From Neoarius graeffei (taxonomy: Eukaryota > Chordata > Actinopteri > Siluriformes > Ariidae): a DNA stretch of 64,000 bases. The stretch lies in assembly GCF_027579695.1 (NCBI RefSeq), contig NC_083596.1, positions 17,449,755-17,513,754 on the forward strand, written 5' to 3'. The position numbers were made by a program, and so were the translations under genes. This document shows, in pieces, positions 1,706 through 31,600 of the stretch; the stretch's first letter is position 1; each line of letters opens with the position of its first letter. The notes under the pieces were generated by a model. It worked only from the letters and a program-made list of their open reading frames with translations, ran no database searches and was not told where the DNA came from.

Positions 1706-3570
1706 ACCCTCAACAAAAGCAACAACTTTTATTCATTTTTCTATCAGACATGGTTCCTTGCTGTAAATGTATTGTTTTATTGTGTTCCTTGAAATACTAG
1801 TGCCATTTATTTTCATTTAGTTTTTTTTCCTTCTCTCATGGAATGCACCATGTCACTTATCAGTAGCAATTAACATGTATAATGGTACGAATACTTAGCA
1901 AGTGAGTATTTTCTGAGGTTCTGCGATGCCTAATGATGTAGGTATTTTCTTTCAAATGGCAAAAATGATGAAAGAACACTTTTTTTTATTATTTAGAAAC
2001 CCACTGTAATATATACAGTAGTTATCTGTACTGGTGGCTGGAATTTGTCACTTAGTAAATGTTGTAAAGAATTGCACTGTTCAAGTCAAATCCCATGGGG
2101 CAAATAAAATAATAATAATAATAATAATAAAAGTCTGTGGGATCTGCCTACTCAGTTTTTTTTAACTGGAAAACAAAATACAAATAAATCTTCACTATAA
2201 CATCTTACACAAAGCTTGAATTTCAGTATGTAGCAATGAAGTGTCTTTAATTTCTCATACCACAGCAATTTGTATCACTCTAACGATTATTTATTTTAAA
2301 AAAAATGATGCACTTTTAATCTGCTACCGGTAAGTTAGTTTCATGCTGTAGAACATCCATGAAACAAGTTCCTGTTATCTCGGGTTATGTTACAGCAGCT
2401 CTAAACACTTGTTCCATCACGAACCTCTTTCTTTTTTCTCTCACTTGAAGTTAATAAGACAACAGTTACAGTTTGGCTGGTGACTGATAAACCACACACA
2501 CAAAAAAAGCTCCATTCTGAAGGCTTTCGCATGTCAGAACACGAACAGCTTTACCTCAGACTGTCACAAAGCACTAACACTGGAGACATCTTTCCAAATG
2601 CCTAAGAAATGTCTCCTAGAAAACGTCACCAAATCAATGATAAGATTTTTATACAATGACACTAAACTTTTTTTTTTTTACTGAAAAAATGCAGCAGGAT
2701 GTTCACTGTAAGCCTGGTACATCTTGCACTGCGGGTTATTTTCATTTACAATCTGCTGGACTTGGTGGAACATGAGAAATGCAACAACCTAGAGATCAGT
2801 GTGGACGATCAAACACAGTGCAGCAAAAGGAAAGGTACACCAATACTCCTGTATTACACACACTGGTATAGTTATTTCCAGTAACTCCTCGTGAGCAAAA
2901 ATTTAAAACCAGTAAATGAGGTGTAAAGAAAGCTTTTGCTTTAAAAAAAAAAAAGGAAGAAAAAAACACTCCTTTCCAAAAATCTGCATGTGCTGTTATA
3001 TTCTGGAATTTCAATATTCATTTAAGTTTTAAAGCTATACGGCCTTTTGATTTTTGCTTAATGTTACTGTAGTCGGTCCTTCACGTTTCATTCGCACACT
3101 CATGTCCTCCATTTTTCTCTCCTGTTTAAAATTTGTATCCCACAATGCCTTGCACAAACAGGGAAAACCCACCACGTGATGCATGACGTAGTATCTTGAA
3201 TTGGGTCATGGTGAAGCAGGAAAAAATAGCAGAGAATTGGCCCTAAATTTATTAATTGTTCTATTTTTTTAAAAAATGAATAAAATTGGAAGTCTGTGAT
3301 TCAAATTCAGTAGCTTTCGGTCCACTAAACAAAAATAATTGGGTGTTGGAAAAATTATTTTTATGACCTGCACTTGAAAAATTTGAAAGGCAGTCTATCT
3401 TTAAGTACAGACCTTCTCAGGTAACACGAATGCAAACATTAAGTAAAATGTGCAGTAAACCTCCATAACAAAGTTCCTCTCAAGTCTTACTTGGTGCCAG
3501 GACTATAAAATAATGCATGTACTGTATGTAAGGAGCAAAACATGATGAAGCATGTTTTTCTTTTCATGTG
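1706..3570. other. AT-rich stretch without a recognisable gene
   Basis: No exon-like or transposase-like frame. There is a (TAA)n run at about 2107-2131. The part at about 2340-2460 (GAACATC, ATGAAACAAGTT, CTCACTTGAAGTTAATAAGAC) resembles the dispersed repeat at 5946-6262. The two 60-70 residue frames at 2699-3014 overlap on opposite strands and show nothing conserved. Confidence 0.6.
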
Positions 3571-3571
3571 T

Positions 3572-3990
3572 TAGAATGGCCCAGTCAAAGTCCAAACCTA
3601 AATCCCATTGAGCATCTGTGGCAAGACTTGAAAATTGCTGTTCACAGACGCTCTCCATCCAATCTGGCTGAGCTTGAGCTATTTTGCAAAGAAGAATGGG
3701 CAAAAATTTCAGTGTCTGGTAGAGACATACCACAAAAGACTTGCAGCAAAAGGTGGCTCTACGAAGTATTGACGCGGGGGGTTGAATACTAATGCACACC
3801 ACATTTTTCAGATTTTTATTTGTTTAAAATTTTGAAGACCATTTATCATTTTCATTTCACTTCACAATTCTGTGCTACTCTGTGTTGGTCTATCACATAA
3901 AATCTCAATAAAAACTTTTAAGTTCGTGGTTGTAAGGTGGAAAAATGTGAAAAAGTTCAAGGGGTATGAATACTTTTTCAAGGCACTGTA
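3572..3990 (+). mobile_element. 3' fragment of a Tc1-like transposon
   Basis: The + strand encodes the last part of a Tc1 transposase (WPSQSPNLNPIEHLWQDLK, containing the final Glu of the DDE triad), ending at 3792. It is followed by a 3' region that ends in a Tc1-type inverted repeat (GTATGAATACTTTTTCAAGG then CACTGTA) near 3990. The 5' two thirds are missing. A remnant of a similar 3' end lies at 14615-14778. Confidence 0.8.
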
Positions 3991-4435
3991 CCTCCACCAA
4001 GCCACATATTAGAATATCCACATGTTTACTAAGTTTGCATACATATCCAGATTTGCATCAAAATCTAGTTTATTGTTTCTTGGCCCATGGCTCATCTTTC
4101 CTCCAAATTTTATCCAAATCCGTTCACTACTTTGAGTTATATTGAGAAACAAACAGAGGTGAAAACAACCTCCTCCAACAAAGTTGGTGGCGGTAAAAAC
4201 AGGGTGGTGTGATGCTGCTTGACACAAAGAGAAGTCACAATTACCAAGCCAAAGTTGATTATTTTCCTGTAATGTCATGTCTCGTGTCACATTTTGTCAA
4301 TTTTTAGTTATATTTAATGTTGTGGAACATCTACAGTACAAGTTAGTCTCTGTTAGTGCTTATTTTTTTTATGTTATGTCAAGTCAAGTCTGTACATGTA
4401 ACTCTGTCCCTCTGAGTTACATGTCGGTCCTGGGA
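3991..4435. repeat. Remnant of a dispersed repeat
   Basis: Segment 4183-4345 (GGTGGCGGTAAAAACA ... TTGATTATTTTCCTGTAATG ... TGTTGTGGAACATCTAC) shares blocks with 5946-6262 and with 13905-13935. I see no gene. The 93-residue minus-strand frame here has no recognisable features. Confidence 0.4.
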
Positions 4436-4963
4436 TCGAGATGCTGACCTCTTCTGCTCCTCGGACCTGCCTGATCCATCCTGGTGCCCTGTGTCTGGTT
4501 GGAGTCTCATCGCATCGTTCCTGTAGAGGACGGCCCCATATGGACAGCTGAAAGTCACACTTGGAAGACGCTCTGGACTCTTACAGTAATGCTTTTATGG
4601 CTGAGGACTACAGTTGACTTGCTAACTTTAGGACTGCAGTTGTCATGAACAGTTTTGCACTCAAGTTTCCATCAATGAAGAGTTACAACATCAACGAAAC
4701 TGTCTTCATGTTAAAACTGTTAATGTTATAGTCATGCTGTCTGTTGTTGCCCAAATGAGGATGGGTTCCCTTTTGAGTCTGGTTCCTCTCGAGGTTTCTT
4801 CCTCATGTCGTCTGTGGGAGTTTTTCCTTGCCACTGTCACCACAGACTTGCTCATTGGGGATAGATTAGGGATAAAATTAGCTCGTGTTTTAAGTCATTC
4901 AAATTCTGTAAAGCTGCTTTGCGACAATGTTTATTGTTAAAAGCGCTATACAAATAAACTTGA
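4436..4963 (+). repeat. Dispersed repeat with LINE-like 3' end, copy 1
   Basis: Nearly the same sequence occurs at 18850-19392: both begin GATCGAGATGCTGACCTC and end with GCTATA(C/A)AAATAAACTTGAC. The terminal block (GGTTCCTCTCGAGGTTTCTT ... AAGCTGCTTTGCGACAATG) is common in fish genomes and looks like the 3' end of a LINE or of a SINE that borrowed a LINE tail. No coding frame survives. Confidence 0.7.
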
Positions 4964-5011
4964 CAAGTGCTTTGCATCTGGAACTATTGTCAGGTTTTTA
5001 AGAAGAAGTAG

Positions 5012-5262
5012 TCTTTTATTTGGTCACATGTACACTCAAGCACAGCGAAATTCCTCCTCTGCATTTAACCCATCTGAAGCGGTGAACATATGCATGCACA
5101 CACACACCCAGAGCAGTGGGCAGCTATGCTATAGTGCCCGGGGAGCAGTTGGGGGTTTGGTTCTTTGCTCAAGGGCACTTCAGCCATGATACAGAGGGAG
5201 GGGAAAGTGATGTTCATTCACTCAGCTCCTCTCATTTTTAATCAACACCTTCTGGTCCAGTA
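5012..5262 (-). repeat. Type C repeat (short retroelement tail) without tRNA head
   Basis: Starts with a TTTATTTGGTCACATGTACA block and continues through CTCTGCATTTAACCCATCTG, GAGCAGTGGGCAGC and CTCAAGGGCACTTCAGCC. The same body is seen at 47756-47990, 50924-51250, 52816-53174 and 56400-56768. Like the 47.8-kb copy it ends near TTCATTCACTC and lacks the tRNA-like head seen in the other three. Confidence 0.65.
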
Positions 5263-5945
5263 AAATCAAGAATTGAACAGGAGGAAATATCCTGCTTTAA
5301 ACTGGTAAAGCAAACAGCATGATGCATCAAGAAATAATTTGACTGGGTTGTATAGTTATCATCCTGGAAATTTTTTACTCCTTAGACGCTTATGTTTCAA
5401 CCCTTTCACCCTGTCTGGAGCTCCACGTCACATTGTTGTTATAAGCAATGTCCCTCTTCCTCCTTCCTGTGCCAGGACCTGGTCTTCCCAGGCAATCTTA
5501 TGTCCTAGTACTAACCAGTGGGTGCTGAGCTCCATTTCTGTAGCCCTCAACCTCTCGCCTATTACATAGTTAGGGTTACAGTGGGTGGGCGGCTGGTCCT
5601 CGGGTAACCACGAGAGTATAAACAATGTGCTTCGAGTTTACTTGTAATGTTATGAACAGGTACATTGCATCCAAAGGTTTGTATAGCCTCAGGACAAAAT
5701 GGAGAGGAAGACAGTGAACTCGTAGCAACAAGTTATTCAGTTTGGTACAATTCAAATATATTGCTTTATTCTCACAAGTAATTAAATATTGCATGTCGAG
5801 GTTATGTAAAAACTTCAGTTAAAACGTTTACATTGCCCTCTTAAAGTGATATAAGAAACATGATAAGCTGAGGGTTTTGTCTTAACTTCAGAAAAAAACA
5901 GACTAGTGAGGAAATGACTAGTGATTAATGATGAACCATCCTGTT
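5263..5945. other. No recognisable feature
   Basis: Unique-looking AT-rich sequence with short overlapping frames on both strands (5339-5794). None has conserved motifs or splice context. Confidence 0.5.
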
Positions 5946-6262
5946 ATTTATTATTTTCCAATCGCAGCATGTCCTAAGTCTTTTACATCTCTTATGCAAC
6001 AGTAATTTGCCAATGATTACAATTGTGTATTTGTTAAAGAGCAACACACAACTTTTCATCTATTTGTAGTTGTGTTTAACGTTGTGGAACATCTGTGAAA
6101 CAAGTACGTTTTTGTTTTCCAATGGAGCAGCTATTAACAATTTTTCCATCACACAGCCTCCTTTTTATCCTCTCTCTTGAAGTTAATTCAACTACTTATC
6201 AGGCTAACAAGAAACCACAAAGTACTTCGTCACCTTCCAAAAACGAGATAAACATCATCTCA
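5946..6262. repeat. Dispersed repeat, perhaps catfish-type
   Basis: Contains TTATTATTTTCCAATCGCAG, GTTGTGGAACATCTGTGAAA and TATCCTCTCTCTTGAAGTTA. Related blocks occur near 2340-2460, 4250-4345 and 13905-13935. I recall this type of sequence from siluriform genomes, but that is memory and not a search. It is non-coding. Confidence 0.45.
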
Positions 6263-6309
6263 CAGGAGCCATTCAAGTCCCTCTGTAAGATGTTACTATG
6301 AAAATGATA

Positions 6310-6670
6310 ATCAAGTCAAGTCAACTTTATTGTCAAATATGCTATATATGCTCGACATACAGCACAGATGAAATATCAGTCCTCTCTGACCCACGGTGCA
6401 AACAGGCAATACAATAAATAAAAATAGAATAATTTAAAAAAACAATATAAATAGTATAAACACTCTAGATAGGAACTAGATAACACTCAAACAATATAAA
6501 CAGTATAAATACACAGTATAAACACTAGATAAGAACAAGACAGACTAAACACTCAGACAATATAAACAGTGTAAACACTAGGTAAGAACTACACACAGAC
6601 TAAACACTCAAACAGACAATATAAACAGTATAAACACTCTAGATATGAACTAGACGTAAACTAAACACTC

Positions 6671-6705
<35 letters not shown>

Positions 6706-6960
6706 AATTGGTTCAAATAACCAAACAGTCAAGGACACTTGAGGTGTAGTAGGTAAACATGAAATAAACAGTATAAACAAACTAGCATCTGTTAAGATGA
6801 GGTAGTGCGGAATAGTGCAAATGAGCGAGGAAAAGTGAGATGTGCGGTAAAGTGAGATGTGCAGTCCCTGAGTTCAGTGTGTTAATGAACGATGAGATGT
6901 ATGTATGTATGTGTGTGTATTGGAATGTATTAGAAAGAGTGTATTAATAAAAAACCAGTG
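6310..6960. repeat. Retroelement tail fused to a degenerate minisatellite
   Basis: 6313-6400 looks like a LINE/SINE 3' tail in reverse (TCAAGTCAACTTTATTGTCA). From about 6430 to 6670 a 50-60-base unit built from AACAATATAAACAGTATAAA, CACTCTAGAT and AGGAACTAGA recurs four to five times imperfectly. It is followed by (AT)n(AC)n at 6669-6705. This is not a CRISPR array: units are contiguous and there are no spacers. Confidence 0.6.
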
Positions 6961-7238
6961 TCCTTTAAGTTAACCTAATAATATCATCTGTTTTTCTGGA
7001 TTTTCTGCTGAATCTAGAAAAGAAATGTAATTCTGTTTCTATATCCCCCACCAACTTCGTCTGGGCGAGGGATAATAAACAGAAGTATGAGTAGTTAATG
7101 AATCACTAACATCAGCTATGATAGACTCAACCTGAGAATTATTGGCAACCCTCAAAGAATGGGCAAAAGGGACTGGAAAAAATGACACAAAATGACTCCA
7201 ATTTCGCTTCAAACAAAAGAACAAATTACTCACATCTA

Positions 7239-8818
7239 CAAACCCCATTCCCAGAAAAGTTGGGATATTTTCCAAAATGCAATAAAAACAAAAATCTGTG
7301 GTTTGTTAATTCACGTGAACCTTTATTTAACTGACAAAAGTACAAAGAAAAGATTTTCAATAGTTTTACTGACCAACTTTATTGTATAAATATAAACAAA
7401 GTTAGAATTTGATGCCTGCAACACACTCAAAAAAAGTTGGGACAGAGGCAAAATAAAACTGAAAATTTTATAGGATACTCAAGTAACACCATTTTGGAAG
7501 AGTCCACAAAAAGCAGGTTAACTGATAACAGGTTAGGGTATCATGATTGGGCATAAAAGGAGCATGCACCAAAGGCTCAGTCTTTGCGAGGAAGGACGGG
7601 TCATGGCTCATTCCTTTGTGCCAAAATTCATGAGAGAATTGTTTGTCAATTCAAAAATAACATTTCTCAAGGCAGGTCTGCAGAGAATTTAGGTCTTTCA
7701 AAAGCTACAGTACACAATATTGTGAAAAGATTCAAAGAATCTGGAGACATCTCAGTGTAGAAAGGGTAAGGTCGGAAACCACTTTTGAATACGCGTGACC
7801 TTCGAGGCCTCAGGCGGCACTGCCTGAGAAACCGTCCTGCTAATGTGACAAATATAACCACATGGGCTTGGGAGTACTTAGGAAAACCGTTGTCACTTAA
7901 CACGGTCTGCTGCTGCATCCAGAAATGAAACAAGAAACTGTATTATGCAAGGAGGAAACCATTAATCAACTCTATGCCGAAATGCTGCCAATTTCTCTGG
8001 GCCTGAACTCATCTCAGTTGGACCTAAAGACAGTGGAAACGTGTGCTGTGGTCAGATGAGTCTACATTTCAGCTTGTTTTCAGGAAAACCGGACGTCTAG
8101 TTCTCAGTGCCAAAGGTGAACATGACCATCCAGTTTGTTATCAGAGAAAGGTGCCAAAGCAAGCATCTGTGATGGCTTGGGGAGCATCAGTGTCCACACC
8201 ATGGGTGAGTTGCATGTGTGTGACGGTACCATTGACACAGAGGCATATATTGGGATTTTTGAGAGACATATGTTGCCATCAAGATGATGTCTCTTCCTGG
8301 GAAGTCTGTGCTTATTTTAGCAGGACAATGCCTCATTCTGCACGGGCTACAACGGTGTGGCTTCATAGACACAGAGTGCAAGTGCTTGACTGGCCTGCTG
8401 CCAGTCCAGATCTGTCTCCTATTGAGAATGTATAGCGCATCATGAAGAGGAGAATCAGACAACAGCGACCACGGACTGTTGAGCAGCTGAAGTCTTGTAT
8501 CAAGCAAGAATGAACAAAAATTCCAACTGCAAAACTGCAACAATTAGTATGTTCAGATCTCATATGATTAATAAGTGTTATTAAAAGGAAAGGTGATGTA
8601 ACACAGTGGTAATAATGCCTCTGTTCCAACATTTTTTGAGTGTGTTGCATGCATCAAATTCTAACTTTGTTTTAATCAAGTTGGTCAGTAAAACTATTGA
8701 AAAGCTTTTCTTTGTACTTTTGTCAGTTAAATAAAGGTTCACATGAATTAACAAATCACAGATTTTTGTTTTTATTGCATTTTTGAAAATATCCCAACTT
8801 TTCTGGAAATGGGATTTG
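7239..8818 (+). mobile_element. Tc1-like transposon, second family, transposase decayed
   Basis: Perfectly bounded: TA at 7237-7238 and 8819-8820. Inverted termini start CAAACCCCATTCCCAGAAAA on the left and end TTTTCTGGAAATGGGATTTG on the right. The + strand holds transposase pieces in several frames: a helix-turn-helix like LSKATVHNIVKRFKESGDIS at about 7695-7755, MLWSDESTFQ at 8043 (first Asp), CAGGACAATGCC near 8320 (second Asp, another frame) and [10 protein letters not shown] near 8405-8434 (Glu). Multiple stops and shifts make it inactive. Confidence 0.9.
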
Positions 8819-8820
8819 TA

Positions 8821-9215
8821 ACAAAATATTTTTAATAATAGTATTTTCTGCCAAAAATACAACTCCAGATTATTGAATACTATACAAAATGTTGGGAAAT
8901 AAACGCAAACAATGTCAGCCTTGAAAAAAAAAAATTGATTAACATTTCACTGTGTGAAAGGATTTGCAGGAAAAGAGGACCTTCCTGACAAAACCCCACA
9001 AAATGTATAATTTTATTGGGTTTTGCCAAGCATCATTGCAATTACAGTTAGGTTCGTGTCATGGTCAGACACGATCAAAATCAGACCGACTGGCCCTGCA
9101 CACCATCAGCATTTATGTATTTTATAGAAGAGATTACACTACTTATGAAAACTTTTATGACTTAAAATTGTGTTCAAATTTTTTTTTCCAAAACTATTAA
9201 TTGTGTTATTGATTT
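8821..9215. other. No recognisable feature
   Basis: AT-rich sequence between two transposon relics. The 78-residue frame at 8964-9200 lacks any motif. Confidence 0.5.
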
Positions 9216-9400
9216 TACACTCACTGAACACTTTATTAGGAACACTATACTAATACTGGGTAGCGCCTCACTTTGCTCTCAAAACAGTCTCAATTCTTCA
9301 TGGCATCCTTTGAGATTCTGGTCCATGTTGACATGATTGCATCACACAATTCCTGCAGATTGTTCAGGTGCGCTTTCACGCTGCAAATCTCATGCTGCTT
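9216..9400. repeat. DNA-transposon end fragment
   Basis: Begins ACACTCACTGAACACTTTAT followed by TAGGAACAC, a terminal sequence type I know as abundant in fish genomes. It continues with a degenerate internal stretch ending around 9400. A block resembling the opposite terminus of this kind of element (GTCAGTGGTCATAATGTTAT) occurs at about 59594-59615. The superfamily is uncertain. Confidence 0.5.
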
Positions 9401-10402
9401 TTAACAAGGTGTGTGAAGAGTCTGGCAACAGAACTGTTTGTATTTCTCAGAAAAATGGAGGCCAATGTCTCCAAACAGAGTGATTTTTTTTCTCTTGAAA
9501 ACAATCTTAAAGACTCATTCTCCTTTGTAAAGAGCCAATACCACCCTGAACATCCGACACAAAAAGCACTAATTATCTTTAGGACAAAATTAGATTCAGA
9601 TTTTTACAGTGTATTCAGATCGTACTGCCTGATTAAACTAGAAAGTACAGTTTATGTAACATGCTCATTTTTGTGCTGTTCAAAAGTTCAAAGCAAGATT
9701 GATGTATAAACAGCCAATATGACATGTGGGCTATATCGCCCATCAGAGATGAAATGGTTCACAGCACACAAGGTCATATGTTCCAAATGAGCACCTTTTA
9801 TGTACAAAAATGATATTGCAGTATATCTTTCAAGTGCCATTATAAACTGTTTCATTGCTGCTATAGCCACGAAGTAAATTTAGTAAACAAAAAATGACTA
9901 ATATCGTTTATCAGAGCTCAACAAGTAAGCATGGAACGACAGACCATTTGCTTGAACATCTGTATGTTTAAACAGAGCAGAGAAAGAGTTAAAGAAGGAG
10001 TAGCGATGTTAGAAATTCAGCACAAAATGCATTTGTGCCAAAACAAATAAGTTTTGACCAAATTTCTCTGACTTGCCGAGTGCCATGTTCTACTATTGGG
10101 TCGTTTTTTTGTGTGTGTGTTTGTTTGTTTTTTGTATTAACCTGAAAGCGCCTTTGCTCATATAAATATACCATTGTACGGCCTCTGCACTTTATATACA
10201 TACACTGACATGTAAGTATACAAATTTTTCATTTCCAAAACGATGGTACATGCACGTCCATGGTTGAATAAAGAAAATAAAACATGACCAGTAACGGGTC
10301 AGGAGATGAGCAGCCCTGTAAATGTTCTCAGGATGATAAAGTACACACCAACAGCAATTCAAATATGGGATTTTCAATTAATGTGTAACAGGTTGGGGGG
10401 AA
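9401..10402. other. Upstream region of the short CA4-like gene, no exon seen
   Basis: I searched it for an upstream signal-peptide exon matching exon 1 of the intact ca4 and found none. The 113-residue frame 9368-9709 starts inside the transposon fragment and has no conserved features. A (GT)n/(TTTG)n stretch lies near 10105-10130. Confidence 0.5.
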
Positions 10403-10493
10403 ATGTGTTGGCAAATCATAATCTGCCTGTCACTGCTGGCATTTTTCCCCCCATGCTACCAGTCCCAGATGTCCTGTACTCAGTCATGCAAAG
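10403..10493 (+). CDS. Short CA4-like gene, first coding exon (candidate)
   Basis: The 3' part, CYQSQMSCTQSCK, matches [12 protein letters not shown] of ca4 exon 2, and the donor AAAG|GTAATA is in the same phase. Instead of an acceptor before the Trp-Cys codons, the frame is open upstream to an ATG at 10403 through a hydrophobic run. The TTTTTCCCCCC just before the Cys codon also looks like the pyrimidine tract of an acceptor whose AG was lost, so the ATG start is a hypothesis. Confidence 0.6.
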
Positions 10494-10604
10494 GTAATAA
10501 TAGACAAGTGATCATGGCAGATGATTGTTTTGTCCAGTAGCTCCATATAACTTTTAGCAGCTAAAATCTTATCTAATCTGGTTAAATCTCTCTGTTGTGT
10601 GCAG

Positions 10605-10769
10605 GGCTAGCAGCGTGGAATGAGATGACTGGTACGTGCGGTGGTAACAGACAATCTCCCATCAACATAGTGACCAAGAAAACTAAGCAGGATTCCAGTC
10701 TCACCGCATTCAAATTCACTGACTACGACAAGACTTTTAACACCATGCTGAAGAATACTGGGGAAACTG
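10605..10769 (+). CDS. Short CA4-like gene, exon equivalent to ca4 exon 3
   Basis: Acceptor TGTGTGCAG and donor GTAATC. It contains [13 protein letters not shown], the CA family signature near the N-terminus, and ends NTGETG where ca4 has NNGHTG. By my count 32 of 56 residues match ca4 exon 3. The exon is 165 bases, as in ca4. Confidence 0.9.
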
Positions 10770-11199
10770 GTAATCCTGGACATTTCTATACACTTCATGT
10801 ACTTTAGAGTGATAAGAGTGGAAGTGGAATATATATGGAAACAAGTGGGCACTCCTGTGATTGACAGGTGTGTCAGAAGGCCTGAAAGGGAAACCTGGTG
10901 GGCTGTGTCACATTTTCTTCCCATATCCACATGGGTTTTCTCTGGATTCTTCAGCTTCTCCAGTTTAGGAAGTCACTGCAATGCCTTCAGTAAAGATATT
11001 AGATATAGTATGCAAAGTTTCCAGAAAAACAGGACTCTTATTTTGGAAAATCAGCAGTTCTTCATCAGCTGTATGAGCAAAGTGCTGGGATTTTATAGCA
11101 TTGCACTATTTTAAAGTACATACAGTTACCTAGGAGTCTAAAAAAGTGTCTTTATAGCATTCAGTAAGGTGGATGTGTCTTCTGGAGCAAACCCTAATA

Positions 11200-13128
11200 C
11201 AACCCCAATTCCAAAAAAGTTGGGACGCTGTGTCAACTATAAATAAAAACGGAATGGGATAATTTGTAAATCATGGAAACCCTATATTTAATTGAAAATA
11301 GTACAAAGACAACAGATCAAATGTTGAAACTGAGAAATGTTATTGTTTTTTGAAAATATATGTTCATTTTGAATTTGATGTCAGCAACGCATTTCAAAAA
11401 AGTTGGGACAGGGGCATGTGATGCACTGTGTTGCATCATCTCTACTTTTAACAACACTATGTAAACATTTGGGAACTGAGGAGACCAATTGCTGTAGTTT
11501 TGAAAGAGAAATGTTGTCCCATTCTTGCTTGATATACAATTTCAGTTGCTCAACAGCTCGGGGTCTCCTTTGTCGTATTTTGTGCTTCATAATGCACCAA
11601 ATGTTTTAAATGGGAGACAGGCCTGGACTGCAGGCAGGCCAGTTTAGCACCCAGACTCTTTTACTACAGAGCCATGCAGTTTTAATATGTGCAGAAAACA
11701 GTTTGGCATTGTCTTGCTGAAAGAAAGAAAGCCTTTGCTGAAAAATATTTTGTCTATATGGCAGCATATTGCTCTGAAACGTGTATATATCATTCGGTAT
11801 TAATGATGCTTTCCCAGATGTACAAGCTACCCATGTCATGTGCACTAATGAACCCTCATACCATCACAGACACTGGCTTTTGAACTGTGTACTGATAAGC
11901 TGGATGGTCCCTCTCCTCTTTAGCCTGGAGGACATGGTGTCCATGATTTCTAAAAAGAATTTCCACTTTTGATTCGTCAGACCTCGGGACAATTTTCCAC
12001 TTCGCTTCAGTCCATTGTAAAATAGCTCGGGCCCAGAAGGTGGCAGTGTTTCTGGATATTGTTTATATATGGTTTTAACTTCCATTTGCGGATGCAGTAA
12101 TAAACTGTTTTCACAGACAATAGTTTTCTGAAGTGTTCCTGAGCCCATACAGTGATTCCCACTACAGACACATGTCTGCTTTTAATGCAGTGTTGCCTGA
12201 GGGCCTGAAGATCACAGGCATCCAGTGTCAGTTTTCAGCCTTGTCTCTTGCATACAGAGATTTCTCCAGATTCTCTGAATCTTTTAATATTACAACCACA
12301 GATGATCCCCAAATTCTTTACAATTTTACATTGAGGAATGTTATTCTTAAATTGTTGTACTGTTTGCCCACGCAGTCTTTCACAGAGTGGTGAGCCCTTC
12401 CCCATCTTTACTTCTGAGAGACTCTGCCTCTCTGGGATGCTCTTTTTATACCCAGTCATGTTACTGACCTGTTGCCAATTAGTTTTTTTTAGCATTACAC
12501 AACTTTTTCAGTCTGTTGCCCCTGTCCCAACTTTTCTGAAACATGTTGCTGACATAAAATTCAAAATGAGCAAATGTTTTTCAAAGAACAGTAAAATTTC
12601 TCGGGGTGGCACGGTGGTGTAGTGGTTAGTGCTGTCACCTCACAGCAAGAAGGTCTGGGTTCGAGCCCCGTGGCTGGCGAGGGCCTTTCTGTGCGGAGTT
12701 TGCATGTTCTCCCCGTGACCACGTGGGTTTCCTCCGGGTGCTCCGGTTTCCCCCACAGTCCAAAGACATGCAGGTTAGGTTAACTGGTGACTCTAAATTG
12801 ACCGTAGGTGTGAATGTGAGTGTGAATGGTTGTCTGTGTCTATGTGTCAGCCCTGTGATGACCTGGTGACTTGTCCAGGGTGTACCCCGCCTTTCGCCCG
12901 TAGTCAGCTGGGATAGGCTCTAGCTTGCCTGCGACCCTGTAGAACAGGATAAAGTGGCTACAGATAATGAGATGAGATGAATGAATAAAATTTCTCAGTT
13001 TCAACATCTGATATGTTGTATTTGTACTATTTTCAATGAAATATAAGGTTTCCATGATTTGCAAATCTTCACATTCTGTTTTTACTGATGTTTTACACAG
13101 TGTCCCAACTTTTTTGGAATTGGGGTTG
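11200..13128 (-). mobile_element. Tc1-like transposon (family with TTGGGAC termini), decayed, SINE inside
   Basis: Lies in the second intron of the short CA4-like gene. TA at 11198-11199 and 13129-13130; termini CAACCCCAATTCCAAAAAAG and the inverse, so it belongs with the elements at 30132 and 57184. The minus strand shows transposase fragments: an N-terminal helix-turn-helix ([14 protein letters not shown]) near 12240-12310, QQDNAKLFSAH near 11710-11740 and WPACSPGLSPI near 11606-11640, where the usual PDL Asp is Gly. Frames are broken. Confidence 0.9.
12603..12986 (+). mobile_element. SINE, type A, full length, 10-bp TSD
   Basis: Head GGTGGCACGGTGGTGTAGTG with tRNA-like A box and GGTTCGAGCCC B box, central block, and type A tail ending ATAATGAGATGAGATGAATG. 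TSD AAAATTTCTC at 12593-12602 and 12987-12996. It is younger than the Tc1-like element that it interrupts. Confidence 0.95.
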
Positions 13129-13552
13129 TATATGACAACAGCAGAATGCTTTGTAAACCAGCAGGCCTCTGGGCACCAAGGCGTAAGATACAGATAACCA
13201 ATCTATCGATAAAACGAGGTGTGTCTAGTCTTGTTCACATTATTCTCTGTAAAACACTTAACTTATCAATATTCAAACAACTATTACTAAAATAATTTGC
13301 ATCTCTTCCTTGATCGCTTAAACCATTAATGTTATGTGGGCAATTATGCAATAAAAAGCTTTTTTTGTTGTTGTTGCTCTCTTTTTTCGTCTGTCATGTC
13401 TGCACAGTCATGACTCTGAAATTAAGATTTTCAAGGCTTCTGAATATATTTTCAGAATGTTCCTTGTCATATCCCTTTCAGCACATCGAGAGGCAGTGTT
13501 TCCTTCAGGGAAACGCGTGTCTGTTTTAATCACCTTGCTTGTTTCCTTGTAG

Positions 13553-13698
13553 TTTCACTGGATATACCTCTTGGGGCCTCAGTGAGTGGGGGAAATCTCT
13601 CACACACCTACAATGCTTTCCAACTGCATTTCCACTGGGGCAACAATGGTAGTTCTGGGTCTGAACACACACTTGATGGAGAGCAGTATCCCATGGAG
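13553..13698 (+). CDS. Short CA4-like gene, exon equivalent to ca4 exon 4
   Basis: Acceptor TCCTTGTAG, donor GAG|GTACAG; 146 bases as in ca4. It encodes SVSGGNL, then QLHFHWG with the two His zinc ligands, and [14 protein letters not shown]. The exon ends in phase 0, which is what allows in-frame joining to the last exon. Confidence 0.92.
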
Positions 13699-14097
13699 GT
13701 ACAGTCATGATTCCCTTTAACACACTGAGCACCAAGCTCGTGCTTTAACCAAATAGGGCTTTATTGTGCAAGAGGAATACTATATGTCATTGGTTTACTG
13801 TTAAATATTTTTTTAGACATGATGTTACATATACACATATTCTGGGAGGAAAATGAAACACTGTTGTAGGAGAATAATCAATGAACTGATGTGGTCCATT
13901 ACCACCTTGAGGTTGATTATTTTCCAATAAGAGCATGCCTTAGCATGAATCAGGTGAGACTGATATTTGACAATATAACCCATTTTGAGAAGTACAGCTC
14001 ACTGGTTATGTGACAGCAGTGATGGTATGTTACTGTAGTTTAAAGGAATTGAGTGTATTTGGAAAATATGTGTATGTATTTCTGTGTTCTCGTACAG

Positions 14098-14289
14098 CTT
14101 GCAGCCTTCTCTAGCCTGAAGTTTAAAGACGGCAAGCCCATGGTGGACACATTCAGACCAGTGCAGCCTCGTAAAGGGCGGGTAGTGTATCGTTCCCACT
14201 CTGGTGTAGCTGGAACTGCAATAATGGTCAGCTTCACGCTCGTCCTGCTGTGTGTGAGTGCAAGTCTGAGCTGTTACCAGTTCTACTAG
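14098..14289 (+). CDS. Short CA4-like gene, last exon with GPI-type tail
   Basis: Acceptor TCGTACAG. Encodes LAAFSSLKFKDGKPMVDTFR, PVQP and a hydrophobic end (IMVSFTLVLLCVSASLSC), stop TAG at 14287-14289. The counterpart of ca4 exon 8 is 180 bases; this one is 192. The 399-base intron before it (13699-14097) replaces three exons and four introns of ca4. I see no exon relics in it. Confidence 0.9.
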   Translation, partial: LAAFSSLKFKDGKPMVDTFRPVQPRKGRVVYRSHSGVAGTAIMVSFTLVLLCVSASLSCYQFY

Positions 14290-14557
14290 AGCTGGACATT
14301 AACACACTGAGTCCTCCTTTAAATGTCAAAATAGATTGAGATTCGACCAGATTGAGAATAGACCAAAGAGATTGAACATATAGATGGTTCTTCTTTTATG
14401 AGAGTTTTTAATGTCTTATTTGTTCATAACAGTTGGTTTGTGCTTTCTGACTTTTCGTATGTTTCTGTACAAAAAGGTTTTCATAGTTGTTTCATTTTGT
14501 TCATCATTTTGCAGAGGAATTCAAATACATATAATTATTTTCAAATACTACCAGATT

Positions 14558-14563
14558 AATAAA
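14558..14563 (+). terminator. Candidate polyadenylation signal of the short CA4-like gene
   Basis: AATAAA, 269 bases after the stop codon, followed by T/G-rich sequence, before the next repeat begins at about 14615. A second AATAAA at 14628 belongs to a transposon remnant. Confidence 0.45.
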
Positions 14564-14614
14564 CATCTGAACATACTCGTATAAGTTCTTCAATACTTTT
14601 CTTCATCTTCATTA

Positions 14615-14776
14615 TTGTTTGCGTCACAATAAAAAAAAAACAATGTGCACCTTTCAAGTGGTAGGCATGTTGTGTAAATCAAATGGTGCGAACCCTCCAA
14701 AAATCCATTTTAATTCCAGCTTGTAATGCAACAAAACAGGACAAACACCAAGGGGGATGAATACTTTTGCAAGGCA

Positions 14777-14778
<2 letters not shown>
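14615..14778 (+). mobile_element. Tc1-like 3' end remnant
   Basis: GCGTCACAATAAAAAA ... GTGGTAGGCATGTTGTGTAA ... GGGGGATGAATACTTTTGCA AGGCAGTGT is the 3' flank and terminal repeat of a Tc1-like element related to the fragment at 3572-3990. The transposase part is missing. Confidence 0.6.
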
Positions 14779-14779
<1 letters not shown>

Positions 14780-14810
<31 letters not shown>

Positions 14811-14935
14811 CATCTCATCTCATTATCTCTAGCCGCTTTATCCTGTTCTACAGGGTCGCAGGCAAGCTGGAGCCTATCCCAGCTGACTACGAGCGAAAGG
14901 CGGGGTACACCCTGGACAAGTCGCCAGGTCATCAC

Positions 14936-15004
<69 letters not shown>
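14780..15004. repeat. Microsatellites around a 5'-truncated SINE tail
   Basis: (GT)n at 14778-14803, then a minus-strand type A SINE tail at 14811-14939, then (TA)n at 14939-15004 that directly touches the Tc1 element at 15005. The frames of 70-110 residues here are repeats, not genes. Confidence 0.85.
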
Positions 15005-15007
<3 letters not shown>

Positions 15008-16608
15008 TGGTGCTTGAAAGTTTGTCAACCCTTTAGAATTTTCTATATTTCTGCATAAATATGACCTAAACCGTCATCAGATTTTCACACAAGTCCTAAA
15101 AGTAGATAAAGAGAACCCAGTTAAACAAATGAGACAAAAATATTATACTTGGTCAATTATTTATTGAGGAAAATGATCCAATGTTACATATCTGTGAGTG
15201 GCAAAAGTATGTGAACCTCTAGGATTAGCAGTTAATTTGAAGGTCAAATTAGAGTCAAGTGTTTTCAATCAATCGAATGACAATCAGGTGTGAGTGGGCA
15301 CCCTGTTTTATTTACAGAACAGGGATCTATCAAAGTCTGATCTTCACAACACATGTTTGTGGAAGTGTATCATGGCACGAACAAAGGAGATTTCTGAGGA
15401 CCTCAGAAAAAGCGTTGTTGATGCTCATCAGCCTGGAAAAGGTCACAAAACCATCTCTAAAGAGTTTGGATTCCACCAATCCACAGTCAGACAGATTGTG
15501 TACAAATGGAGGAAATTCAAGACCATTGTTACCCTCCCCAGGAGTGGTCGACCAACAAAGATCACTCCAAGAGCAAGGTGTGTAATAGTCGGCGAGGTCA
15601 CAAAGGACCCCAGGGTAACTTCTAAGCAACTGAAGGCCTCTCTCACATTGGCTAATGTTCATGAGTCCACCATCAGGAGAACACTGAACAACAATGGTGT
15701 GCATGGCAGGGTTGCAAGGAGAAAGCCACTGCTCTCCAAAAAGAGCATTGCTGCTCGTCTGCAGTTCGCTAAAGATCACATGGACAAGCCAGAAGGCTAT
15801 TGGAAAAATGTTTTGTGGACGGATGAGACCAAAATAGAACTTTTTGGTTTAAACGAGAATCATTATGTTTGGAGAAAGGAAAACACTGAATTCCAGCATA
15901 CAAACCTTATCCCATCTGTGAAACATGGTGGTGGTAGTATCATGGTTTGGGCCTGTTTTGCTGCATCTGGGCCAGGACGGCTTGCCATCATTGATGGAAC
16001 AATGAATTCTGAATTATACCAGTGAATTCTAAAGGAAAATGTCAGGACATCTGTCCATGAACTGAATCTCAAGAGAAGGTGGGTCATGCAGCAAGACAAC
16101 GACCCTAAGCACACAAGTCGTTCTCCCAAAGAATGGTTAAAGAAGAATAAAGTTCATGTTTTGGAATGGCCAAGTCAAAGTCCTGACCTTAATCCAATTG
16201 AAATGTTGTGGAAGGACCTGAAGTGAGCATTTCATGTGAGGAAACCCACCAACATCCCAGAGTTGAAGCTGTTCTGTATGGAGGAATGGGCTAAAACTCC
16301 TCCAAGCTGGTGTGCAGGACTGATCAACAGTTACCGGAAGCGTTTAGTTGCAGTTATTGCTGCACAAGGGGGTCACACCAGATACTGAAAGCAAAGGTTC
16401 ACATACTTTTGCTACTCACAGATATGTAATATTGGATCATTTTCCTCAATAAATAAATGACCAAGTATAATATTTTTGTCTCATTTGTTTAACTGGGTTC
16501 TCTTTATCTACTTTTAGGACTTGTGTGAAAATCTGATGATGTTTTAGGTCATATTTATGTAGAAATACAGAAAATTCTAAAGGGTTGACAAACTTTCAAG
16601 CACCACTG
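15005..16608 (+). mobile_element. Tc1-like transposon, third family, copy A
   Basis: Inverted termini CAGTGGTGCTTGAAAGTTTG on the left and CAAACTTTCAAGCACCACTG on the right (ends at 16608). TA precedes the left end; the right flank is (TG)n/(TA)n instead of a clean TA. It carries one transposase frame on the + strand and matches the copy at 43416-45024 over its length. It inserted at the edge of a TA microsatellite. Confidence 0.95.
15372..16388 (+). pseudogene. Tc1-family transposase with two nonsense codons
   Basis: 339 codons from ATG ([15 protein letters not shown]) to TGA, without frameshift. N-terminal paired helix-turn-helix domains ([20 protein letters not shown]), then the catalytic core with Asp151 (WTDET), Asp242 (QQDNDPKH) and Glu277 (NPIEML). 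The 34 residues between the last two fit the DD34E spacing of Tc1. In-frame TGA codons at 16023-16025 and 16224-16226 interrupt it; the first sits where copy B has Arg (YQRILKEN). All three catalytic residues survive. Confidence 0.93.
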
Positions 16609-16628
16609 TGTGTGTGTGTATATATAAT

Positions 16629-17532
16629 GTGAGAAGAATCGTCCTTTCCCTGGGTGTTCATGTACTTGTTCCTGTCCCTTAGGTTGTGTTTACACACTTA
16701 ACTAACAAACTAACTAACAGTCTAACTCATCATGCTTTATTATTCTCACTACCACGTTTTCACCAAGTTAGATTTATGAGCAATAAAACATGTGATGTTG
16801 GAGTTTACACTTGCCCGCTTGGCTTGCTAAAGAATTCATTTCTCTAGCCCTGTATAACTGATACACAGGTGAGTCTCTGGTGTTTGAGAGTGAGTGTTTA
16901 AACCAGGGCTGGCTCAGTTTTCCAGACATTTGTGCTTTCCTTCTTCTTACACATCGAACCCAGCCAGTGTAATCCTTCCTCATCAGCTAATGAATGAGGT
17001 CTAATTCTAAACCCTGCAGGACAGGAGTCTGATATCTTGATGTACTTCTGACAGTTTGCCAGTAGATGTCAGCAAGCCTATGTTAAAGATTGTCCAGAAA
17101 TGTGATCTGCAGGCTGCTGGGTGAGGAGTCCCACAGGATCACAAATACATTTAACCTTTCAAACCACCTTTACTGGACATTTACAAATGCTACAGGCTGC
17201 AGCATTGAACCCTAGACACAGAAACACAGTGTAGTGAGACTCCATTGCTAGTGACCCTTTTAATGTCACACTACAGCAGCAGTGCTAATATTAAAGTATT
17301 TAGCGAGGGCTCCAAATAAGGGCATAAATGAAAGTGTAGCTGCTAGAAATGGACTAAAGAGGTTCACTTTACCCATATTAATTTATCATGCCTTCCACCT
17401 GATTTCCCCAAAGCTTTAAAGCATACTTTTAAAAAAAGGACAACAAATAGATTATTTTTGTGACTTTAATACAGCTTTCTACCCTTTCAAAGCAATATGC
17501 GAGGAAAAAACAGACAATAAATTTAGCAGAAA
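16629..17532. other. No recognisable feature
   Basis: Unique-looking sequence after a (TG)n(TA)n run at 16607-16627. Short frames only. Confidence 0.5.
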
Positions 17533-17546
17533 ATGTACTTAACTAC

Positions 17547-17913
17547 AAGGGCAGCACGGTGGTGTAGTGGTTAGTGCTGTCGCCTCACAGCAAGAAGGTC
17601 CGGGTTCGAGCCCCGTGGCTGGCGAGGGCCTTTCTGTGCGGAGTTTGCATGTTCTCCCCGTGTCCATGTGGGTTTCCTCCGAGTGCTCCGGTTTCCCCCA
17701 CAGTCCAAAGACATGCAGGTTAGGTTAACTGGTGGCTCTAAATTGACCGTAGGTGTGAATGTGAGTGTGAATGATTGTCTGTGTCAGCCCTGTGATGACC
17801 TGGCGACTTGTCCAGGGTGTACCCCGCCTTTCGCCCGTAGTCAGCTGGGATAGGCTCCAGCTTGCCTGCGACCCTGTAGAACAGGATAAAGCGACTAGAG
17901 ATAATGAGATGAG
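17547..17913 (+). mobile_element. SINE, type A, full length
   Basis: tRNA-like head GGCAGCACGGTGGTGTAGTG, central block and type A tail. Flanks ATGTACTTAACTAC (17533-17546) and ATGTACTTAAGTAC (17914-17927) form a 14-bp TSD with one change. Confidence 0.93.
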
Positions 17914-18312
17914 ATGTACTTAAGTACCTGTTAGGGTACTAACACTGGGGTTGTGCCTTCAAAAGGGGAGATCTTTTACGGTATATTTTTAATATGTATG
18001 TTTCACCTGGGAAAGTAAATGCATCTTATTTAAGGTAAATCACTGGACAGTCTTTTGTATGAAACAGTGAAATTATATTAAATATGTTTTTTCCTTCTCA
18101 TAAAAGTAATTAATACAAAATCTGATAATGAGATGACCAATTTGGGATAATCAGCATTATATACTTTACTGGACATATTCTCTAATTCATTTCTTGTTTA
18201 TTTAAAGCAGAGCATCTGATAGTCAGCAGTAAAAACAATCCTCACTGTAAACACCATACTAATGATAAATTGAGACAAATTAGAGAGTTTATTAAAGATA
18301 TCAGATTTAGTA

Positions 18313-19463
18313 ATGCCCAGGTCAGATGGCAGGAAAGACTCATGCTGTGACCTGTGATCGGTCAGGTGGCGACTGACCACAGGTGGACGCAGGTGTTTTG
18401 CGTCAAATCCTTCGTTGTGGTCAGACGTATTGCAAGACGCAGAGTTTTTAAGCTGAATCAGCCAGTCAGACCCAGGTTGACGCAACGTACAGAAAACCTT
18501 TAAAAAATATAAGGCCATAAGACTGCTCGCAGGTTGTTGTAAACTATTTTCAGGTGCAGTCTGTATCTACCTGTGATGCATTGCAGCTATCTCTAAAGAT
18601 TTGTCTTCTCCTGCGTCTAGCTTCCACTACCTGCTTCAACCTGCGATTGGTCACTCAAGCATTGCACGACCGCCTGCCTCTACATGCGTCAACCTGCGAT
18701 TTGTACCAATTGGAAGTGAATCACAGCTGAAATGCGAACAGATCATGATCCACTTGCATCAACCTGCCTCTACTAAAGACGCTCTGCAACACTCTGCCAT
18801 TATCTGCGTCATCGTGCATCTATGCAAGACCAGTCTTGAGTCTACCGAGATCGAGATGCTGACCTCTTCTGCTCCTCAGACCTGCCTGATCCATCCTGAT
18901 GCCCTACTTCTGGTCAGTCTCATCACATCGCTCCTGTAGAAGACGGCCCCATATGGACAGTTGAAAGTCACACTTGGAAGACGCTCTGGACACTTACAGT
19001 AATGCTTTTATGGCTGAGGACTACAGTTGACTTGCTAACTTTAGGACTGCAGTTGTCATGAACAGTTTTGCACTCAAGTTTCCATCAATGAAGAGTTTAT
19101 AACATCAACGAAACTGACTTCATGTTAAAACTGTTAAAAATGTTATAATCACATTGTCTGTTATCACCCAAATGAGGATGGGTTCCCTTTTGAGTCTGGT
19201 TCCTCTCGAGGTTTCTTCCTCATGTCGTCTGAGGGAGTTTTCCCTTGCCACCATCGCCACAAGGCTTGCTCATTGGGGATAGATTAGGGATAAAATTAGC
19301 TCATGTTTAAGGTCATTCAAATTCTGTAAAGCTGCTTTGCGACAATGTCTATTGTTAAAAGTGCTATAAAAATAAACTTGACTTGAAATAAACTTGATTT
19401 TGTTATCGCAGGTAGACACAAGTAATTGAAAACTAGTAGCAGCTTGCCGTCTGACCTGGGCAT
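18313..19463. mobile_element. TIR element with internal CCTGCG-rich region, hosting a LINE-tail repeat
   Basis: Ends are inverted copies: ATGCCCAGGTCAGATGGCA at 18313 and, reversed, ATGCCCAGGTCAGACGGCA at 19463 (18 of 19 match). The left arm and interior hold many copies of ACCTGCG/ACGCAGG words, the pattern of subterminal transposase sites. No transposase frame is visible. I cannot define a target duplication, so the superfamily is open. Confidence 0.6.
18850..19392 (+). repeat. Dispersed repeat with LINE-like 3' end, copy 2
   Basis: Second copy of the repeat at 4436-4963, in the same orientation, inside the TIR element. It ends in AAATAAACTTGACTTG followed by a repeated AAATAAACTTGA. Confidence 0.7.
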
Positions 19464-20001
19464 AAGCAACATGTGACTCAGTAAGCAACATTACAGGATG
19501 GCTATAATGGTACTGAACATACTCAATACTTAGAGTATTATTGACTCAATAAATCACAGCATTTTATTTGTTCTTGCAAAGCCCAAAACATTTCCCATTG
19601 CACTATTATAATCAAGAAATTATTATGCCAACATTTTGCAGCCTAACCAACGATTCATGAAGCAGGTAAAGCTGAATACACACTACAGTGCATAATATTT
19701 ACACATAGTATTTACAGCAGCTTTTTCAGTCTGAGATGAGGCATCGTCACTTCTTCACAGGTACCACGATTGCCATAAATTGTGATTGGCACATTGAAAG
19801 CCTTACCTAGGAAGAGCAGCATTGGATTTCTTTATGTCAAAGATTATTTTTATTTTACTAACATTTTGAGATAACCAGGTTTCTGTACACTTTATAATTA
19901 TTGGTAATGATGAGTGCTGTCATTTTGGTATTGGGGCCTCTGGACCCATAGCAGTCAGTAATGAGACTACACTGGTTTAATATTATACCAAAAATCTGAA
20001 A
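19464..20001. other. No recognisable feature
   Basis: AT-rich sequence with only short frames, ending at the (AAAG)n tract. Confidence 0.5.
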
Positions 20002-22351: not shown

Positions 22352-22412
22352 ATGCAGGCGCACATTTTGGGTCTCCTCCTTGCATCGGTTTGGAGCGAGT
22401 GCACCGGTCTCG
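22352..22412 (+). CDS. ca4: ca4 exon 1: signal peptide
   Basis: ATG then [18 protein letters not shown], a short hydrophobic core ending in small residues; donor CTCG|GTGAGT, phase 1. This ATG is the only one in frame near the donor. Confidence 0.85.
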
Positions 22413-28600: not shown

Positions 28601-31600
28601 AAAGCGGACAATCCTAGGGGCGTTCTCTCCAGGCATTTTAGCACCATTAACGTTAGTTTGTTCCTGAACATGACGTAAGATCAGGTGAATGTGCGTTCTC
28701 TTGCACAAAATTAGTATAAAAATTAATGTAGATATAAATATCTTATGCCAGGCGGCACGGTGGTGTAGTGGTTAGCGCTGTCGCCTCACAGCAAGAAGGT
28801 CCGGGTTCAAGCCCCGTGGCCGGCGAGGGCCTTTTTGTGTGGAGTTTGCATGTTCTCCTCGTGTCCGCGTGGGTTTCCTCCGGGTGCTCCGGTTTCCCCC
28901 ACAGTCCAAAGACATGCAGGTTAGGTTAACTGGTGACTCTAAATTGACCGTAGGTGTGAATGTGAGTGTGAATGGTTGTCTGTGTCTATGTGTCAGCCCT
29001 GTGATGACCTGGCGACTTGTCCAGGGTGTACCCCGCCTTTCGCCCGTAGTCAGCTGGGATAGGCTCCAGCTTGCCTGCGACCCTGTAGAACAGGATAAAG
29101 CGGCTAGAGATGATGAAATGAGATGAGATATCTTATGCCTAACTATTATGACATGTTACAAAAAATAAAGACAAAGTCCACGTCTCCAATTTTACAAGTC
29201 TGAATGCAGTTAATGTACGAGTCTGAGTCATCAGTGCTCAAGTCAAGTCACGAGTCCTTAAAAATAGGGCACGAGTCGGACTCGTGTACTACGAGCCTGT
29301 TTGATATACAGCTCATATATGCTTATCTAGCCAAATCTATTGCTTCTGTAGTACTGACATTTTTAAAGTCATACACAAACCAGGATTTAAAGCCATGGTT
29401 CAGATGCATTAATGAATTAGGATTAGGATGCTAATACATTTGATCGGCATGGTGGTGCAGTGGTTAGCACTGTTGCCTCACAGCAAGAAGGTTCCGGGTT
29501 TGAACCTCATGGCTGACAGGGGCCTTTTTGTGTGGAGTTTGCATGTTCTCCGGGTGCTCCGGTTTCCCCCACAGTTCAAAGACATGCAGATTAGGTAAAA
29601 TACCCAGCCACTGGGGTTGCACAAGCCAGTGCATACTTTGTGTTGGTTCTAAGCCCAGATAGATTGGGGAGGGTTGTGTCAGGAAGGGCATCCAGTGTAA
29701 AAGCTATGCCAAAATCAAATATGCGGAACTGATCTGCTGTGGTGACCCCTAACGGGAGCAGCTGAAAGATGAAGATGTTAATATATTCAGTGTTCATCAG
29801 GGGAAAGCTGAAGCTGTTTGTTTTGTGACCCAAAAGAGTGTTAGAAATTCCTAAAGACTGCCGCACAAACAGCATGACCGGTCGACATGCAGAACAATGC
29901 CTGTTTTCAGTTCTTTGAAATGTCGTTTATTTTCTCTGACAGCAGGGACTGGCTGACAGACCTGCTGCATTGTTGGCCTTTCTTTTGTTCTGCGATGCTC
30001 AAAAGATCAAAATGAGCACTGGTGGAATGTGTGGCTTTACCGAGTCTCAATCCAGAGTGTCTGCTCATTAAATGTTCATTATAGACACAAGGGGGATATC
30101 CAGGCACTGGAACTGAATTTGGAAAGAAGTACAACCCCGATTCCAAAAAAGTTGGGACAAAGTACAAATTGGAAATAAAAACGGAATGCAATGATGTGGA
30201 AGTTTCAAAAGTCCATATTTTATTCAGAATAGAACATAGATGACATATCAAATGCTTAAACTGAGAAAATGTATCATTTAAAGAGAAAAATTAGGTGATT
30301 TTAAATTTCATGACAACAACACATCTCAAAAAAGTTGGGACAAGGCCATGTTTACCACTGTGAGACATCCCCTTTTCTCTTTACAACAGTCTGTAAACGT
30401 CTGGGGACTGAGGAGACAAGTTGCTCAAGTTTAGGGATAGGAATGTTAACCCATTCTTGTCTAATGTAGGATTCTAGTTGCTCAACTGTCTTAGGTCTTT
30501 TTTGTCGTATCTTCTGTTTTATGATGCGCCAAATGTTTTCTATGGGTGAAAGATCTGGACTGCAGGCTGGCCAGTTCAGTACCCGGACCCTTCTTCTACG
30601 CGGCCATGATGCTGTAATTGATGCAGTATGTGGTTTGGCATTGTCATGTTGGAAAATGCAAGGTCTTCCCTGAAAGAGACGTCGTCTGGATGGGAGCATA
30701 TGTTGCTCTAGAACCTGGATATACCTTTCAGCATTGATGGTGTCTTTCCAGATGTGTAAGCTGCCCATGCCACATGCACTAATGCAACCCCATACCATCA
30801 GAGATGCAGGCTTCTGAACTGAGCGCTGATAACAACTCGGGTCGTCCTTCTCCTCTTTAGTCTGAATGACACGGCGTCCCTGATTTCCATAAAGAACTTC
30901 AAATTTTGATTCGTCTGACCACAGAACAGTTTTCCACTTTGCCACAGTCCATTTTTTTTTTAACATACTTTTTATTGTTTTTTCACAAAATATACAGACA
31001 ACATACAGAACAACCCCTACCCACCCACCCCGCCCATAAGACAGCTATCAGGGTGCAAACAGAAAATACAAGTAACATAACTGAATAACCAATACTAATA
31101 CAAAATGACATGTCATTCAATACATAATTTAAAATAAATTCAAATAATAATAAGACAATAACAGAATTACAAAAAAAAAACAACCCACAATATGTTCACA
31201 GCAAGAAAATAACAGCTCTAAGTTATCACTAAAATAAAAATAAACATTTCGCGTCATTTGGGATTATGAGGGAGATCTAGGCCTGGTCTGTGACCAAAAC
31301 TCACTCAGCTCCCCTCTCAGGAGAAGAGAACTCAAATCTTCTGGAAGATAATTTATGAAGGGGGACCAAATTTTGTGAAACATATCTTCTTTCCCCTTGG
31401 CCAGAGCCATCAATCTTTCATGTGGCAGTGTACAGAAAATCTCCTTATACCACTGTGTAATGGTTGACGGGCGCTCTTTAATCCAGTTCAGTAATATGCA
31501 TTTTCACGCAGAGAGGAGCAGCTTCTCAAGTAAAATGTATCTTAGTGCTGGGAGTTGTAGCACCTTAGACAGTAACCCAACCAGAAAGACACTTGGGTCT

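Follow-up and report, generated by a model that had tools for sequence, protein, structure and literature searches.

A truncated CA4-like tandem copy in Neoarius graeffei is most likely an unprocessed pseudogene with an open frame

The locus and its three CA4-like copies

The window analyzed here is a stretch of 64,000 nucleotides (C29:17449755-17513754) within the 2.34-Gb genome of Neoarius graeffei, and it was compared with 129 kb of the chromosome around it, 193 kb in all. Three CA4-like copies in one orientation emerged from searches using the carbonic anhydrase family and the exons of the studied copy: copy A upstream of the window, copy B, which is the subject of this study, and copy C, located in the window 3′ of B. 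Positions without a prefix are those of the window, and all features of B and C are on its forward strand.

Copy A is the intact parent of B. It is encoded on the same strand at C29:17390940-17437030 (L020, L032-L035), ends 23 kb upstream of B and is 98.5% identical to B over the shared coding bases. The gene consists of eight exons with the AG/GT consensus at all junctions and encodes 309 amino acids in 930 nt. Exons 1-4 lie at C29:17390940-17391000, 17405334-378, 17405490-654 and 17407206-351, and exons 5-8 at C29:17414313-405, 17420121-187, 17430213-373 and 17436839-17437030. Exon 1 is predicted by a signal-peptide screen as a signal-peptide-like ORF with a phase-1 donor, which is backed by its three conserved copies. 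The best solved match of copy A is 2znc_A, annotated as ‘carbonic anhydrase IV’ (E 1.5e-55). The domain is common to both, and the mature chain of CA IV begins with Trp-Cys-Tyr, corresponding to the start of exon 2 in A. A hydrophobic tail is also known for CA IV.

Copy C (22352-60934) is an intact, older CA4-like paralogue of 307 amino acids and served as the outgroup. A candidate for its exon 1 was found at 22352-22412 by a signal-peptide screen; exons 2-5 are located at 45160-45207, 46576-46740, 54520-54665 and 55187-55279, and exons 6-8 at 56135-56201, 60478-60641 and 60755-60934. The comparison of A with C gave a dN of 0.37 and a dS of 1.04, and therefore the CA4-like family is constrained. 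The 254 positions of the PF00194 profile are covered from 2 to 253 in both A and C but only from 3 to 109 in B, which leaves B with a match to just 107 of 254 domain positions.

Copy B retains a remnant of exon 2 (10454..10493; 40 of 45 nt with the donor intact), exon 3 (10605..10769; 98.8% identical to A), exon 4 (13553..13698; 98.6%) and exon 8 (14098..14289; 97.9%). The shared parts of these four exons are 97.9-100% identical between B and A, their flanks match, and the splice sites of exons 3, 4 and 8 are identical. In contrast, B has neither the exon 1 of A nor its acceptor for exon 2, and of exons 5-7 it keeps just the 3′-terminal 15 nt of exon 7. The stretch of B containing exons 2 and 3 has two matches in the genome, B itself and A. 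Exon 4 carries the first two zinc histidines (His94 and His96 in CA II numbering), and exon 8 encodes the hydrophobic C-terminal tail and the stop codon. The hydrophobic end is conserved and open in B and is a putative GPI-type tail, as noted in the original prediction. The third zinc ligand, His119, is encoded by exon 5, which is present in A and C and missing in B, so that B has two of the three zinc histidines, as the original prediction had pointed out. Copy B is thus short of what a functional CA4 possesses: a complete CA domain, three zinc histidines and its own exon 1 with a signal peptide.

The original prediction described B as a gene of 198 codons made of exons 2, 3, 4 and 8 with intact splice sites. 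The frame itself is real, spanning 594 nt from 10403 and 198 codons including the stop, and exons 3, 4 and 8 are found at the predicted places with the same splice sites as in A. However, no exon starts at 10403 and the acceptor AG of exon 2 is deleted; as a gene, the 198 codons fall on the missing exon 1, this lost acceptor and a start codon located in a former intron.

Three lesions in copy B

The high-identity homology between B and A begins at 10347, which is equivalent to C29:17405218 inside intron 1 of A and lies 14.2 kb downstream of the nearest exon 1 of A. Farther to the left, the flank of B (3063..9391) shows broken collinear homology to C29:17360618-17376917, with BLAST identities of 80-94% across its longer blocks, and this region is located upstream of the exon-1 copies of A, on their far side. 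The 955 bp in between (9392..10346) have no match in C29:17360001-17405300 except for chance-level 24-bp hits and occupy the place of C29:17376918-17405217, which holds the three exon-1 copies. Because the left flank of B matches the far side of these copies, the duplication once included the exon 1 side, and B has lost it. Judging from the aligned sequences, 9392..10346 is the site of the exon 1 deletion, and the promoter was presumably lost along with it.

The block at 8870-9211 matches only B and A, and its neighbor at 9212-9391 is repetitive; along most of its length, the block at 5238-5804 also matches B and A only, but it contains an embedded repeat of ~157 bp that occurs many times (40 of its 2947 candidates were scored). 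On the right side, B and A are the two matches of 17914-18313, with no third. No clean tandem junction was found at 10347, and the left flank of B matched sequence from farther upstream of A. No homologue of exon 1 was found near B, as compared with three full copies upstream of the body of A, and no substitute exon 1 in ~20 kb upstream of B passed the cut-offs of a crude screen for an ATG, a hydrophobic stretch and a phase-1 donor. The three copies of A exon 1 are at C29:17382470, 17384355 and 17390940 (100%, 96.7% and self; L043, L031) and have the common donor gtgagtgaag. The extra copies are possibly alternative first exons or remnants of additional gene copies.

The second lesion affects the acceptor of exon 2. 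In A, a polypyrimidine tract and ATGCAG precede exon 2, and C has the same layout with TCTCAG; in both, exon 2 starts after the AG, right before the Trp-Cys-Tyr-Gln codons. A 10-bp deletion in B (at 10453..10456, with a placement ambiguous by ~3 nt) removes the acceptor AG together with the initial 5 nt of exon 2. Both A and C retain this acceptor, and therefore its loss is derived in B. The next downstream AGs in B would open exon 2 in phase 0, and exon 1 of A ends in phase 1. The remaining end of intron 1 (10347..10453) includes the polypyrimidine tract and the ATG at 10403. Comparison with A and C identified 10403-10453 as former intron 1, and the proposal of an exon 2 beginning at 10403 was rejected. 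Thus, the hydrophobic ‘signal peptide’ is the polypyrimidine tract of a splice site that is read through. The same ATG is found in A, where it is out of frame and runs to a stop. Copy B is 13 bp shorter than A in this region, and only in B are the ATG and the hydrophobic stretch in frame with exon 2.

The third lesion is one deletion relative to A, found in B only, which corresponds to C29:17412581-17430358. In B, intron 4 breaks off at the equivalent of A position 17412580 and continues with the sequence from 17430359 onward, and the deletion measured in A amounts to 17.8 kb. The junction at 13937..13938 contains two extra bases. It is followed by the 3′-terminal 15 nt of exon 7 (13939..13953; 11/15 identical to A) and the donor GTGAGA. 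Exons 5 and 6 are missing as had been stated, but exon 7 is not gone entirely. Being one deletion relative to A, the junction between exons 4 and 8 supports a deletion in a duplicate, which was one of the two readings originally offered. The phase claim was also correct, since phase 0 applies both to the 3′ boundary of exon 4 and to the 5′ boundary of exon 8. Exons 5-7 comprise 321 nt and start and finish in phase 0, and therefore their loss cannot break the frame; as C retains them, B shows the derived state. The possibility that close copies of exon 5 or 7 lie elsewhere was checked and rejected: the exon 5 stretch of A has one match in the genome (A), and the exon 7 stretch has two (A and C), in searches that detect close copies only and that, for exon 5, miss even that of C. 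No exon 6 of B was found in the 193 kb around the locus. Introns 3, 4 and 7 also differ in length between the copies, perhaps through transposon insertions in either of them.

Divergence of the duplicates and test for constraint

The right flank of B (14290..19855) is homologous in blocks to C29:17437031-17440577, with 1.5-2.3% substitutions near the gene and 3.6% and 9.2% farther away, and is broken by a Tc1-type transposon and other insertions. The left flank is 8.3% diverged in its far part (184/2210) and 3.5% in the near block. Over the whole comparison (3063-19855 against C29:17360618-17440577), the outer flanks are 8-9% diverged, as against 1.5-2% for the gene body (~2% with its introns), which suggests later gene conversion. 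The simplest reading would be an older duplication whose middle was later homogenized by gene conversion, and a second, nested duplication is an alternative explanation for the drop. The locus lies in a tandem array whose copies seem to exchange sequence.

Several mobile elements were noted in the window. The Tc1-type transposon 3′ of B (~15000-16610) has an open stretch at 15294-16025 with a Sleeping Beauty-like DNA-binding domain. A SINE-like repeat of ~375 bp has many regional copies, including those at 1303-1569, 12604-12981 and 17549-17916. An L1-type retroelement on the minus strand (31504-36584) contains a 1199-aa open frame with endonuclease and reverse transcriptase domains, beside which an ORF1-like match fell below the cut-off.

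Copies A and B differ at 8/543 coding positions (1.5%), seven of the changes being non-synonymous and one synonymous, and at 52/2585 non-coding positions (2.0%) with 9 indels in 11 aligned blocks, a comparison that leaves aside the large insertions between blocks. The coding and non-coding rates do not differ (Fisher p=0.49). The dN and dS of B against A are 0.017 and 0.008, respectively, based on 8 changes only, some of which perhaps occurred on the branch of A, as selection on B was measured against A only. The probability of at least seven non-synonymous changes out of eight is 0.0095 at an omega of 0.2, 0.038 at 0.3, 0.14 at 0.5 and 0.43 at 1. Strong constraint on a B protein is thus unlikely from these sequences, and weak selection with an omega of ~0.5 would be compatible with so few changes. 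In simulations, the fraction of stop-free copies was 0.75 after 8 random substitutions and 0.87 after 4; as 75% of the copies stay free of stops even after 8 substitutions, the open frame is no evidence of function. One observation runs counter to neutrality: the shared coding alignment contains no indels, whereas ~1.9 would be expected in 543 bp over both branches because the non-coding rate is 9 in 2585 bp.

Interpretation of copy B and the active site of copy A

Taken together, the sequence comparisons indicate that B is very probably an unprocessed, tandem-duplicate pseudogene of the CA4-like gene. An intact parent is located nearby, introns are kept, disabling lesions are present, and coding differences have accumulated at the non-coding rate. 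A segment with the whole CA4-like gene was duplicated in tandem, as shown by the flanks on both sides, which exist in two collinear copies. In B, the exon 1 side was deleted and the 10-bp deletion took the exon 2 acceptor, as seen by alignment to A with C as the outgroup for the acceptor. Another deletion took exons 5 and 6 and most of exon 7, as seen in the same comparison, again with C as the outgroup. The remaining exons are probably open because the copy is young or was recently homogenized with A, as its 2% divergence would suggest, and because exons 4 and 8 meet in phase 0 on both sides. Copy B would most likely be a known kind of object: unprocessed pseudogenes of tandem arrays also keep introns, have a partial exon set without the first exon and show a neutral pattern. 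Unlike typical examples, the frame of B is still open, as expected at 2% divergence. We infer that B probably yields no protein and that any transcription of B would be read-through or come from a chance promoter. Among the titles listed by literature searches, none names this locus, although titles only are weak evidence of absence. Copy B illustrates how a gene remnant can pass for an intact short gene, with its phases and youth keeping the frame and a polypyrimidine tract mimicking a signal peptide.

Other explanations are compatible with parts of the data. B might supply exons to transcripts running through from A: B exon 8 could follow A exon 7 and serve as an alternative C-terminal exon, or B exon 3 could follow A exon 2. 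The distance of 23 kb on the same strand, the fitting phases (phase 0 between A exon 7 and B exon 8, phase 1 between A exon 2 and B exon 3) and the fact that exons 3, 4 and 8 of B have splice sites identical to those of A would allow this use, but a product passing from B exon 4 to exon 8 would still be devoid of exons 5-7, and the coding differences carry no sign of constraint; we consider it quite unlikely. The missing exons could also have been lost in the assembly, given that repeat-rich tandem copies of 98% identity are usual sites of collapse. However, B differs from A in nearly every block (0-5% by block) and has junctions of its own, its outer flanks are 3.5-12.7% diverged from those of A, three separate losses (exon 1, acceptor and exons 5-7) would have to be explained, and the assembly contains no additional close copy of exon 5 or 7. 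Among the readings weighed here, an assembly artefact is the least probable.

The other reading originally offered, a retained non-catalytic surface protein, would make B a GPI-anchored CA4 fragment whose start codon and signal peptide newly arose from the polypyrimidine tract of intron 1. In line with this idea, the remaining exons are open, and only in B do the hydrophobic stretch and the ATG that precedes it at 10403 share the frame of exon 2. Yet chance alone would place such a join in frame in ~1/3 of cases, the product would cover no more than positions 3-109 of the 254 in the domain, an exon 1 homologous to that of A is missing, the acceptor is lost, the start codon lies in former intron sequence, and 7/8 coding differences are non-synonymous at the non-coding rate. 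This reading does not stand up well, and we regard it as very unlikely. Even more doubtful is the variant in which B acquired a promoter and small deletions fused the intronic tract as a new signal peptide to a CA4 fragment, so that a pseudogene would have given rise to a half-domain protein that is secreted or GPI-anchored. The inactive CA-related proteins CA8, CA10 and CA11 (CARPs) keep the whole CA fold and have lost zinc histidines by substitution. A product of B would likewise be non-catalytic, but B has lost the central part of the domain, and more than half of the domain profile is unmatched.

Copy A would be a better fit than B for an inactive CA-like surface protein. Alignment to the solved CA IV revealed the substitutions H64E, L198R and T200I in copy A, and the zinc histidines are kept. 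These substitutions alter the active-site pocket and the proton shuttle. As an intact CA4 paralogue with these changes, copy A is the more interesting gene. Exon-7-type sequences were found at 21 places among the fetched family matches, and the motif was read in 20 of them (L003 was left out). Leu198 is present in 18/20 places, the exceptions being copy A with Arg and L021 with Gln. Thr200 is present in 17/20 places, and copy A is the only one to deviate at both positions.
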